This document shows positions 4,382-9,114 of a stretch of DNA of 64,000 nucleotides, in pieces (position 1 is the stretch's first letter; each line of letters begins with the position of its first letter). Source of the DNA: Nitratidesulfovibrio sp. SRB-5 (lineage in GTDB: Bacteria; Desulfobacterota; Desulfovibrionia; Desulfovibrionales; Desulfovibrionaceae). A program made the position numbers and the translations under genes. The notes beneath the pieces are model-generated. The model ran no database searches, was not told where the DNA came from, and saw only the letters and a program-made list of their open reading frames with translations. The stretch spans positions 1,646,650-1,710,649 of the forward strand of contig NZ_JAIOTY010000001.1 in the NCBI RefSeq assembly GCF_019931275.1, given 5' to 3'.

Positions 4382-4958
4382 GCAGTCTCCTGTCTGTTCC
4401 GGGTCCGGCGGGGGCCAGCGCGGCCCCCGGGCGGAATTCTTTCGCCTGGGCTCCGACGACATCGTTGAAGTGGCCGCCCTGGAACGCCAGTGCTTTTCCA
4501 CCCCGTGGAGCGAAGAACAGTTTCACCTGGCCTTCGAGCGCAAGGTCTTTTCGGTGTTCGGCCTGCGCGATGCGGGACAGCTGGTGGCGTACGTGGCCGT
4601 GTACCACCTGGCGGGTGAACTGGAAATACTCAACGTGGCCGTGCACCCCGACCAGCGACGACGGGGGCTGGGCCGCCGCCTGCTGGCCATCCTGTTGCAA
4701 GTGGGTGCCAAAATGGGCATACATAGGGCCGTGCTTGAGGTCCGCACCGGCAACGCCCCGGCCATCGGCCTGTACGAGGGGCTGGGGTTCACCCGCGCGG
4801 GCGTGCGACCGCACTACTACGGCGATACCGGCGAAGACGCCATCATCTACGAATGCGACCTTGCGGAGTGGGCCTGCCGCGAGCCGGATTGCGCCGCCCC
4901 GACAGGCGGGCTTGGCGCCGAGCCGGATGGGGCGGGCGCAGGTTCCGGCGAGGTCTGA
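4380..4958 (+). CDS. rimI: Ribosomal-protein-alanine acetyltransferase RimI (GNAT)
   Basis: 192-residue GNAT N-acetyltransferase. The acetyl-CoA binding segment 'VHPDQRRRGLGRRLL' and the following 'LEVRTGNAPAIGLYEGLGF' and 'AIIYECDL' are typical of RimI, which acetylates the N-terminal alanine of ribosomal protein S18. The start at 4380 is preceded by AAGGAGGG and overlaps the NUDIX start on the opposite strand. About 20 residues precede the usual RimI start ('FRLGSDDIVEVAALERQCF'), and a Gly/Ala-rich tail of about 30 residues follows. The specific acetylation target is inferred from family resemblance only. Confidence 0.88.
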   Translation: MQSPVCSGSGGGQRGPRAEFFRLGSDDIVEVAALERQCFSTPWSEEQFHLAFERKVFSVFGLRDAGQLVAYVAVYHLAGELEILNVAVHPDQRRRGLGRRLLAILLQVGAKMGIHRAVLEVRTGNAPAIGLYEGLGFTRAGVRPHYYGDTGEDAIIYECDLAEWACREPDCAAPTGGLGAEPDGAGAGSGEV

Positions 4959-5022
4959 GCCTGCGGGGGGCCTGCGTTCTGGGGCAGGCATCGGGCGCGA
5001 CACCTGCGCTGCGCCCGACAGG

Positions 5023-5151
5023 CATGATGTTTCGGACGGGTATCCCCATCCGGACATGACGTTTTGGACGGGTATCCCCGTCTGGACCATGACGTTTTGG
5101 ACGGGTATCCCCGTCCGGGCATGACATTTCGGACGTGTATATCCGTCCGGG
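5023..5151. repeat. Four 32-bp tandem repeats with internal dyads
   Basis: Four units with a 32-33-bp period start at 5023, 5055, 5088 and 5120, each beginning CATGAYRTTTYGGACG. Each contains an inverted repeat; in unit 3 it is GGACGGG-TATC-CCCGTCC (5099-5116), a 7-bp stem with a 4-nt loop. The second and third copies are nearly identical and the outer ones are diverged. The tract fills most of the 232-bp gap between rimI and tpiA, so a transcript crossing it would fold into a row of small hairpins. There are no unique spacers between copies, so it is not a CRISPR array. Confidence 0.85.
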
Positions 5152-5190
5152 CATCGCTCACCTTTCACGCAACACCGTCCGGAGACCCGC

Positions 5191-6366: not shown

Positions 6367-6453
6367 GCCGAGGTGGTGGAATTGGTAGACACGCTATCTT
6401 GAGGGGGTAGTGGGAGAAATCCTGTAAGGGTTCGAGTCCCTTCCTCGGCACCA
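6367..6453 (+). tRNA. tRNA-Leu(GAG)
   Basis: 87-nt class II tRNA including an encoded CCA. The acceptor stem GCCGAGG pairs with CCTCGGC (6443-6449), followed by discriminator A and CCA. The anticodon stem CTATC/GGTAG encloses the loop TTGAGGG, giving anticodon GAG at 6401-6403. The T arm (GGGTTCGAGTCCC) and a long variable arm are present. It reads CUC/CUU leucine codons. Confidence 0.97.
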
Positions 6454-6655: not shown

Positions 6656-7636
6656 TCAGCGAACATTCGTTCCGGTACGCGGGCAATTGCGCTCTTCCGG
6701 GATCGAATCGGGCGGGAAATACGGGGAATAGGGCTGCACCATGCGGACAAGATCACTGGTGCCCGGGGTGCCGCCATTGCAGCGCATGGCATCCAGGGTA
6801 GCTTGCAGGCGGTGCAGCAGGGTGTCGTCAACATCGGTGTTGAACGCCATGTACAGGTCCAGCTTCTGAAGCACCATGGACACGGCGTATTCCGCGCTGT
6901 CGATGTTGCCCTGTTCCATCGTGTACAGGGTGGAGTGGATGTTGAAGGCCAGCACGTCTATCCTCCCTGCGGCCAGCATGCGCACCGCGTCGCTCGGAGT
7001 GGTGGCCGAGTGCAACATGGCGGAGGGCACTCCCTGCTCGATCAGCAGTTGCTCGCCCACGGTATTGCGCACCGTGCCCACGCGTAGCCCTTGCAGGTCG
7101 CGCCATTGACGGGGGGCCAGGCGGCTGTTCTTGCGTACCACGGTACCTACGGTCACCCGCATGACCGGCCCCACCCATTTGAACAGCTTTTCGCGTTCCG
7201 GCGTGCGTGCGGTGCAGAACAGCAGGGCATCGGGGGTATTCAGGGCCAGATGGAAGGCCCTGGGCCAGGGCAGCACCCTGATTGCTTCTGAAGACGGGGC
7301 AAGTCCGTTGCGGCGCAGGACTTCAAGGACGATATCCATGCCAGGGCCGCGTGGTGCGTTGTCCTGAACGAAATTGAAGGGGGGAAGGTCTTCGGTGAGC
7401 AGCGTAAGGGCACTGGCGGGGCTCGTGCATGCAAGGCCGACGCTCAACACGGCGCAGATGCTCGACACGGCCAGACTGGCGCGCAGCACGCGGGCACGGG
7501 TGGCGGCAAGAAAGGCTGTCGATATGGCCTTGCGAGCCCGCGTGGCGCAGGGCCACGGTGCGGTGCATGCAGGCGGTGCGCCTGCCGTGCTGGATGCGAA
7601 GGAGAAGGTGTTGCAAGGCATACGACGAACGACCAT
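6656..7636 (-). CDS. Periplasmic solute-binding protein, family 3 type
   Basis: About 326 residues, related to extracellular solute-binding proteins of amino-acid ABC transporters. The mature part begins 'LTLLTEDLPPFNFVQDNAPRG' and shows the 'GMDIVLEVLRR', 'LQGLRVGTVRNTVGEQLL' and 'LAAGRIDVLAFN' blocks of the family. A hydrophobic stretch ending '...VGLACTSPASA' is the likely signal peptide, but about 60 residues of unexpected sequence precede it. No candidate start (GTG 7699, ATG 7636 or 7621) has a good SD, so the N-terminus is uncertain. There is no permease or ATPase gene nearby. It may be an orphan binding or sensory protein. Confidence 0.75.
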   Translation of the reverse strand: MVVRRMPCNTFSFASSTAGAPPACTAPWPCATRARKAISTAFLAATRARVLRASLAVSSICAVLSVGLACTSPASALTLLTEDLPPFNFVQDNAPRGPGMDIVLEVLRRNGLAPSSEAIRVLPWPRAFHLALNTPDALLFCTARTPEREKLFKWVGPVMRVTVGTVVRKNSRLAPRQWRDLQGLRVGTVRNTVGEQLLIEQGVPSAMLHSATTPSDAVRMLAAGRIDVLAFNIHSTLYTMEQGNIDSAEYAVSMVLQKLDLYMAFNTDVDDTLLHRLQATLDAMRCNGGTPGTSDLVRMVQPYSPYFPPDSIPEERNCPRTGTNVR

Positions 7637-7927
7637 GGGGGACGGATGCCCGTGAGGTTGGCCGCGTGGAGATCGCGTGCGATTGTGGGCGGCGTTCACG
7701 GCTTGTCCATAGTATCACCCCGGGCCGAGGCAGGGTCAATGCAGGCTGGCCCTGCACATGAACGGGGAAAAGGTGGGGATGGCTGGGGGAGGCTACGCAC
7801 AAGGGCAGGGTGCAGGTGTCCCGGCGGCCCGCCGCGTGGTGTGGCGACGGGCCGCGTCCGGTGGAGCCGGGATGTCGGGATGGACAGGTGGACGGCAGGG
7901 TTGCAGGAAGAGACGCAACGTCCCGTC

Positions 7928-8092
7928 CTAGTTCAGGCGGTTGATGTCGAGGGGGGCGCCGCAGCAGGGGCAGATGTCCACGCGCTTGCCGCTGAAGCAG
8001 GTACCGGCAAAGAACAAGGTGCGGAACTTGCGTTCGATGGAGCTGTACAGAACCCAGAGCTGATGGCCGCAGGTGCAGAAACGCTGTTGCAT
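7928..8092 (-). CDS. 54-residue cysteine-rich protein
   Basis: A 54-residue protein with cysteines in an N-terminal 'CTC', one central Cys (FAGTCFSG) and a C-terminal 'CPCCGAPLD', a layout that suggests a zinc-ribbon-like fold. It has no signal peptide or membrane segment. ATG 8092 is well supported by AAGGAG 6 nt upstream. A 20-bp site identical to the one in front of the neighbouring S24 repressor lies 44 bp upstream, overlapping a TATAAA hexamer, so the gene is probably repressed by that protein. Function unknown. Confidence 0.8.
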   Translation of the reverse strand: MQQRFCTCGHQLWVLYSSIERKFRTLFFAGTCFSGKRVDICPCCGAPLDINRLN

Positions 8093-8136
8093 GACGGTCT
8101 CCTTGTGAATGTGGCGGGGCATGTCGCCAACCACCA

Positions 8137-8156
8137 TGTTTATAAAAGTGAACACG
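8137..8156. promoter_or_regulatory. Putative S24-repressor operator, copy 1
   Basis: The 20-bp sequence at 8137-8156 is the exact reverse complement of 9075-9094. Its first 18 bp form an imperfect dyad, TGTTYA-N6-TRAACA. It sits 44 bp upstream of the 54-residue protein's start and contains a TATAAA hexamer readable toward that gene. Binding by the adjacent HTH/S24 protein is inferred from the identical site in front of the repressor itself. Confidence 0.75.
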
Positions 8157-8222
8157 CTGGGCAAAAAAATATACAGGGGGCGCCAGCGCGGGGTTTTGTC
8201 CGCGGGCAAGGTGGAGAGCCCC

Positions 8223-9008
8223 CTATCCGATTTCTCGGCACAGCCAGACCACCCGGCCAATGACGCGGAACTGTTCCAGTTCGTCGCCGCGCACGCGGAT
8301 GGGCGAATACGCGGGGTTGTCGCTGACAAGGGCCAGGCCGTCCGGGGTGCGCATGACGCGCTTGACCAGCACGGCATCTTCCAGTCCCACGGCATAGACC
8401 TGGCCGAAACGCAGGTCTTCGGTGGCGCGGTCCACCAGCACGGTGTCGCCGTCGCGGATTTCCGGTTCCATGCTGTCGCCCACCACGTCCATGAGCACCA
8501 TGGCCGAAGGGGTGCCCTTGCGGGCCAGCCAGGCATGCGCAAAGGGCTGGCCGCCCACGGGCATGGCCTGCACTTCGAACGAGCCGCCGCCAGCGCTCAG
8601 GCGGGCGCGGACCTTGGGCACCATGTGAACGGCGGGGGGCAAGGCTGCGTGGTGCGGGGCAGGCATGGACGGGCGCAGCGTTGCCGCACGTGCGGCAACG
8701 GAACCCGCGGGGTTGAAATGGCTGCTGGCCGACTGCGGGGGGATATTTCCTGCTCCGTGTACCGCTGCCGCCAAGGGCTGCGCCAACGGAGCGGGGCGGG
8801 GTGTGCCGCGACCGTATTCCAGCCAGTCGGGTGCCAGCCCGTATACCCGCGAGAGCCGCAGAATCCACTTTTGCGGGATGGCATCGCGGTTCTTGGCCTG
8901 GGTGATGGCGCTGCGGTTCACCCCCAGCACGCGGGCAAGGGCCTGCTGCGTGGTGATGTCCGTGCCCTGCATGACCCGGGCGAAGAAGGTGTCGAAGGCA
9001 TCCGGCAT
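8223..9008 (-). CDS. HTH / S24-type repressor (CI- or LexA-like)
   Basis: 261-residue regulator. Residues about 1-65 form a CI-type helix-turn-helix ('TTQQALARVLGVNRSAITQA'). Residues 66-130 are a Pro/Ala-rich linker. The C-terminal part is an S24 peptidase domain with the nucleophile in 'GDSMEPEI' and the general-base Lys in 'AVLVKRV'. Such proteins repress promoters and can be inactivated by RecA-stimulated self-cleavage. Phage-like in type, but no phage genes surround it. It is likely autoregulated: a 20-bp site identical to one upstream of the neighbouring small gene overlaps its own -10. Confidence 0.88.
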   Translation of the reverse strand: MPDAFDTFFARVMQGTDITTQQALARVLGVNRSAITQAKNRDAIPQKWILRLSRVYGLAPDWLEYGRGTPRPAPLAQPLAAAVHGAGNIPPQSASSHFNPAGSVAARAATLRPSMPAPHHAALPPAVHMVPKVRARLSAGGGSFEVQAMPVGGQPFAHAWLARKGTPSAMVLMDVVGDSMEPEIRDGDTVLVDRATEDLRFGQVYAVGLEDAVLVKRVMRTPDGLALVSDNPAYSPIRVRGDELEQFRVIGRVVWLCREIG

Positions 9009-9074
9009 GGTGGTGTCCTGTGCGGCGGTTTCTGCCGTCCGTGTGGAATGTCCGTGTCAGGCTGCTTCAGTCGT

Positions 9075-9114
9075 CGTGTTCACTTTTATAAACAAGATTC
9101 CGCGCCGGGTGCAA
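9075..9114 (-). promoter_or_regulatory. Repressor promoter with overlapping operator, copy 2
   Basis: Reading on the minus strand: -35 TTGCAC (9109-9114), an 18-bp spacer and -10 TATAAA (9085-9090). The 20-bp operator-like sequence (9075-9094) covers the -10, which suits autorepression. The repressor start codon lies about 67 bp downstream. Confidence 0.75.

Follow-up and report, generated by a model that had tools for sequence, protein, structure and literature searches.

The stretch of Nitratidesulfovibrio sp. SRB-5 analysed here (the window, 64,000 nucleotides) contains a small module that probably acts as a LexA-independent DNA-damage switch, made up of an S24 repressor, two operators and a gene for a 54-residue protein of zinc-ribbon type. 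The module looks like a stripped-down substitute for the classic SOS switch. This reading is drawn from sequence, namely from the parts and their conservation, the pairing of operator and recognition helix, the genome-wide count of operators, the absence of LexA and the linkage to umuDC.

Organization and distribution of the module

The gene order on the minus strand is lysA, the repressor gene and the 54-aa gene (Table 1). The nearest recognised neighbours are the gene of an SBP_bac_3 protein, lysA, mutS, secG and tpiA, and no phage structural or replication genes were found beside the module. The module stands between lysA/mutS and secG in both Nitratidesulfovibrio and Halodesulfovibrio and, since this setting is common to the two genera, it can be regarded as old chromosomal DNA. 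Between secG and the SBP_bac_3 gene (6656-7699), at a distance of 1.5 kb from the small gene, lies a tRNA-Leu (gag) gene (window 6367-6453). Upstream of tpiA (window 4843-5160) overlapping open reading frames contain the repeated units GIPVR/GDTRPKRH, which point to tandem short repeats.

Homologues of the small protein are present in 131 of the 297 genomes of the order (Desulfovibrionales), spread over 31 of its 55 genera. At 64 of 66 loci the gene immediately preceding the small gene on the same strand encodes an S24 repressor, and such a repressor gene is likewise upstream at 27 of 29 named loci from a second collection that overlaps partly with the first. These named loci include Halodesulfovibrio, Solidesulfovibrio and several Desulfobacterales MAGs. 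When the module repressors were placed in one tree with 20 further S24 proteins, 17 of the latter formed a clade apart, and the repressor of genome G048, which is not adjacent to the small gene, grouped among the module repressors.

Table 1. Features of the module (window positions) and of related loci
Feature	Position	Strand	Remarks
54-aa zinc-ribbon protein (MQQRFCTCG...CPCCGAPLDINRLN)	7928..8092	-	C6, C8, C41, C44 conserved (CxCG...CPxC)
Small-gene ribosome-binding site AAGGAG	8099..8104	-	AAGGAG in 7/8 genomes, AGGGAG in 1/8
Small-gene operator (predicted)	8137..8156, dyad 8137-8154	.	TGTTTA-N6-TGAACA; overlaps TATAAA; at -62 across the genus
Putative -10 of small-gene promoter, TATAAA, within operator	8139..8144	-	TATAAA in 7/8 genomes, TATGAA in 1/8
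CI-type XRE/S24 repressor, 261 aa	8223..9008	-	Phage_CI_repr HTH (10-70) and Peptidase_S24 (135-254); A139-G140, S179, K216
Repressor-gene operator (predicted)	9075..9094, dyad 9077-9094	.	Overlaps putative -10; invariant in 6 aligned genomes
Putative -10 of repressor promoter, TATAAA, within operator	9085..9090	-	Invariant in 6 genomes; 18 bp from -35
Putative -35 of repressor promoter, TTGCAC	9109..9114	-	TTGC invariant in 6 genomes; promoter predicted from sequence
TIGR03916 radical-SAM genes under operator	L220 978-2228; L226 990-2264		Two genera

The repressor

The repressor matches Pfam families PF00717 (2.9e-23) and PF07022 (1.4e-8) and its identity is 85-90% in the five other genomes of the genus with a complete gene. 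Against the canonical LexA model TIGR00498 it scores 37.3 bits, the cut-off being 110.95, and it aligns from position 112 only, that is with its C-terminal part. No LexA-type winged HTH was found at the N-terminus, which matches Phage_CI_repr (PF07022).

Residues A139, G140, S179 and K216 are invariant in the 64 orthologues compared (64/64). A139-G140 is probably the scissile bond and S179/K216 the catalytic dyad. The equivalent residues of LexA, HdiR and UmuDAb perform self-cleavage stimulated by RecA (PMC8565304) and, by analogy, the Nitratidesulfovibrio repressor would cleave itself too. The initial annotation had called the repressor self-cleavable, in agreement with the conservation of every residue required for S24 self-cleavage.

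Operators and promoters

The 20-mer at 8137-8156 (TGTTTATAAAAGTGAACACG) is, over all 20 bp, the exact reverse complement of the one at 9075-9094, and their 18-bp dyads are the only perfect matches to TGTTYA-N6-TRAACA in the window. One of them overlaps the -10 box of a putative repressor promoter (TTGCAC, 18 bp, TATAAA on the minus strand), whose TTGC and TATAAA are invariant in six genomes. The other is found 45-62 bp upstream of the 54-aa open reading frame, with TATAAA placed as in the repressor operator. All of this bears out the initial annotation, which had described two identical sites, one over the -10 of the repressor's own promoter and one upstream of a 54-residue Cys-rich protein, as a two-site mini-regulon.

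The mini-regulon is also upheld genome-wide. The loose pattern TGTTYA-N6-TRAACA has one extra exact match in the whole genome (C2:874023), with a GC-richer core, and with one mismatch it is found at 30 places, mostly with GC-richer cores. The operator with its AT-rich core is not widespread and occurs, at 0-1 mismatch, only at these two sites in 4.12 Mb, the reversed pattern used as control giving 0 matches in the same 4.12 Mb. A search with the cross-genus consensus, allowing up to three mismatches, added two unrelated matches in the whole genome, which is not above the control.

The two inverted 20-mers are not a repeat artefact. The operator dyad is present at both places in 8/8 Nitratidesulfovibrio genomes, wherever the contig covers them, and the only base change in the genus affects one site in one genome. 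Both operators are thus near-invariant islands, the intergenic DNA surrounding them having diverged. Judging from the overlap with the -10 boxes, a repressor dimer bound there would keep RNA polymerase from both promoters. The small gene has a short inverted repeat, GGCGAC-ATGC-CCCGCC, in its 5' leader (window 8113-8128), which may fold into an mRNA hairpin; most Nitratidesulfovibrio genomes keep it roughly, as GGCGG...CCGCC.

Pairing of operator and recognition helix

A set of 80 distinct repressors, falling into three recognition-helix classes, was examined with an unbiased dyad search that covered all 6-mer half-sites and spacings; shuffled sequence gives 0-1. The counts are not independent events, because the loci are related: in the [NH]RSA class the dyad ranked first upstream of the small gene is TGTTTA-N6-TAAACA (37/45, or 38/45 in the shifted register GTTTAT-N4), which also stands upstream of the repressor itself (33/45), the GRAA class has TGTCAA-N7-TTGACA upstream of the small gene (19/24), and the third class has ATTTAC-N4-GTAAAT upstream of the small gene (7/11) and of the repressor (7/11). 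As the operator changes together with the recognition helix, there is strong indirect evidence that the repressor reads the promoter of the small gene.

When the two promoters of each locus were compared over 18 bp, significance was reached in part of the genomes only, since one copy is often half-degenerate (for example TGTTTATAWAACGCAACA). At loci L106, L108, L124, L131 and L139 it is often the repressor-side operator that is one-sided and the small-gene copy that is more symmetric, which could result in different repression strengths.

The small zinc-ribbon protein

Across 8/8 Nitratidesulfovibrio genomes the small protein keeps 96-100% identity. The pooled pN/pS of its gene within the genus is 0.08, so that the 54-aa open reading frame can be taken as a real gene under purifying selection. 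An AlphaFold2 model of the protein is three-stranded and confident, with a pLDDT of 87. No Pfam, NCBIfam or PHROGs family was found above cut-off, Pfam giving scattered zinc-ribbon models of which none is reliable. A Foldseek search with the model returned nothing with E below 1, and VIA-align gave Z values of at most 2.3 (RapA, CarD), too weak for use. A new zinc-ribbon family is the best description of the protein, which probably binds zinc. Judging from the genes that accompany its own, it may take part in translesion synthesis or help to tune the damage response. Most likely it would assist or tune the use of a translesion polymerase or the transcription of damage genes, in a DdrR-like or a polymerase-accessory role.

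Tiny zinc ribbons (YCxCGxEIWIEY...CPxCGRxLxEDDL) were also found in other orders of the phylum (loci L189-L196), several of them between cobO-like and msrA-like genes, as named from reading the sequence. No S24 repressor is present near these relatives, and they were not accepted as members of the family, being probably a sister family.

LexA and the links with DNA damage

No LexA was found in this genome, where the best match to the LexA model is a UmuD-like protein and concerns the peptidase part only. In the order as a whole only 11 of 297 genomes have a LexA above cut-off. Since both the module and an above-cut-off LexA are missing from many genomes of the order, the switch can be dispensed with.

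This genome has a separate gene for UmuD. At its umuDC genes (C2:652710) there is no operator, even with the cross-genus consensus at up to three mismatches, and the DNA-damage link is therefore borrowed from relatives. In other families of the order umuD and/or umuC follow the small gene closely in six distinct loci; UmuD was confirmed in these by NCBIfam, and the polymerase has UmuC as its best match. The operator precedes a small gene-umuD-umuC operon in genomes G066 and G045, and in G039 a lone operator is placed just before umuD, 0.8 Mb from the module. Among the 17 separate umuD loci of relatives, the one in G039 alone carries the operator, and one locus of G142 has a match with three mismatches. 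In Desulfonatronovibrio (L141/L173) the small gene is paired with umuC and has no adjacent repressor, and the class-matched operator is retained; at L141 the operator is present and a repressor is absent within 3 kb. No recognisable operator was found at the small gene-umuD pair of G048 (L132). The orthologous repressor of that genome lies about 110 kb away and has its own operator-like sequence, TTTACTTTGGTAAA (L248).

In two genera (genomes G015 and G026) the operator is located 17-21 bp upstream of a gene of family TIGR03916, "DNA modification/repair radical SAM". No such operator precedes the TIGR03916 genes of five further genomes, and the idea that this family is generally under the operator was rejected, G015 and G026 being the only cases. 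No operator was found at recA in the 30 loci sampled. The initial annotation had suggested a stress-induced switch. The stress can be narrowed to DNA damage because LexA is absent here and because umuDC and a DNA-repair gene of relatives stand under the same operator.

Proposed mechanism and alternative explanations

In the mechanism proposed here, a repressor dimer on the two identical operators would mask the -10 box of the repressor promoter and that of the zinc-ribbon promoter and keep both promoters off. DNA damage would give rise to RecA filaments, upon which the repressor would cut itself at A139-G140 with S179/K216. Both promoters would then open, a burst of the small protein would follow, and fresh repressor would reset the circuit. 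The evidence argues strongly for repression by this repressor, and it points to binding at the predicted operators and to induction by DNA damage through RecA-triggered cleavage. In other Desulfovibrionales the repressor would also hold umuDC, in an operon or in trans, or the DNA-repair radical-SAM gene, and in Nitratidesulfovibrio the regulon would have shrunk to the repressor itself and the zinc ribbon. A wider reading, which we put forward tentatively and at somewhat less than even confidence, is that the Desulfovibrionales independently swapped LexA for a CI-type S24 repressor whose core target is an undescribed zinc ribbon working with DNA polymerase V, as its partner or as a damage-specific regulator, and kept even where umuDC has been released.

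It is quite possible, if on balance doubtful, that within the same switch the zinc ribbon serves mainly as a DdrR-like co-regulator, either co-repressor or antirepressor. The module would then be a self-contained feedback loop and not a producer of a repair factor. The adjacency of repressor and small gene in 91 of 95 loci (partly overlapping sets) is in favour of such a role, as is the example of Acinetobacter DdrR, a small protein co-controlled with the S24 repressor UmuDAb and assisting it (PMC7273328, PMC11332147). However, at L132 and L141/L173 the small gene accompanies umuD or umuC with no adjacent repressor, which fits a polymerase partner equally well or better.

A signal other than DNA damage, such as oxygen, heat or metal/zinc status, with the zinc ribbon as sensor or effector and a trigger different from self-cleavage, appears improbable. 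The hosts are anaerobes, a four-cysteine zinc-type ribbon could plausibly belong to a response to redox or metal state, and HdiR of L. lactis is reported to be heat-responsive as well (PMC8565304). Against this, the A-G/S/K cleavage machinery is invariant in 64/64 orthologues, and the links with umuDC and with TIGR03916 repair genes speak for damage.

Transfer RNA genes are common integration sites. That the module is the immunity remnant of a prophage, with an ancient CI gene, its operators and a single early gene left behind and doing nothing for the cell, is nevertheless very improbable and was rejected: the repressor is CI-like (PHROG 4, 5e-45) and the tRNA-Leu gene is near, but the lysA/mutS/secG order is kept in Nitratidesulfovibrio, Halodesulfovibrio and others, the module is conserved order-wide, purifying selection on the small protein is strong, the other S24 proteins of the tree stand mostly apart, and 50,697 phage records hold 0 relatives of the small protein. 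The same neighbours and phage-record search agree with the initial annotation, which had placed the module outside any phage.

Significance

A damage response without LexA is known in few groups, the Streptococcaceae, Moraxellaceae and Bacteroidetes (PMC8565304). In the literature searched there was no such description for the sulfate reducers of this order, although an earlier Desulfovibrio regulon prediction is possible. The LexA-independent damage switch proposed here would provide an order-wide candidate with mapped predicted operators, of which the two promoters of Nitratidesulfovibrio are a natural minimal case. It also brings in a new tiny protein family, whose role is made directly testable by the umuDC linkage. 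Should the wider, tentative reading hold, with the zinc ribbon working alongside DNA polymerase V, the SOS response would gain a new protein component.

Comparison with known systems

HdiR of Lactococcus and Streptococcus is a CI-like S24 repressor of a LexA-less host whose targets, beyond its own gene, are very few and include an error-prone polymerase (PMC8565304). The Nitratidesulfovibrio repressor is likewise a fusion of a CI-type HTH with an S24 self-cleaving domain, carries the Ala-Gly and Ser-Lys residues, belongs to a LexA-less organism and has a predicted operator in its own promoter, with a tiny regulon besides. It differs in phylum and operator, and whereas HdiR reportedly controls umuC directly, the retained target in Nitratidesulfovibrio is the zinc ribbon, and it is only in other families that umuDC comes under the operator; an operator-controlled polymerase gene was not found in this genome. 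To our knowledge no zinc ribbon is associated with HdiR.

In Acinetobacter the operator of the S24 repressor UmuDAb overlaps promoter elements of its own gene and of a tiny protein gene, ddrR (PMC7273328, PMC11332147), and DdrR is described as unique to that genus. Both bacteria lack LexA and have the repressor operator at the repressor and tiny-protein promoters. The difference is that UmuDAb is a relative of UmuD, with divergent genes, whereas the Nitratidesulfovibrio repressor is of CI type and co-oriented with the small gene. DdrR is not known to us as a zinc ribbon. Descent of the repressor from UmuD failed the test, its N-terminus being of CI type and UmuD being encoded separately in the genome. 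As far as tested, the module belongs by descent to neither HdiR nor UmuDAb-DdrR, as it is not of UmuD type and holds no polymerase gene in this genome.

The non-canonical LexA of Bacteroidetes similarly has a CI-related HTH and an S24 domain in place of LexA (PMC8565304). It governs a full SOS regulon through GGA-N5-TCC or CTAA-type operators, in contrast to the two sites of Nitratidesulfovibrio. AlpR of Pseudomonas aeruginosa is an S24-type repressor that holds AlpA, and by analogy the module can be likened to this damage-activated pathway with a central small regulator under such a repressor. AlpA, however, is an antiterminator active in the damage response (PMC7969949). The pathway it serves is one of cell death, and P. 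aeruginosa has LexA.
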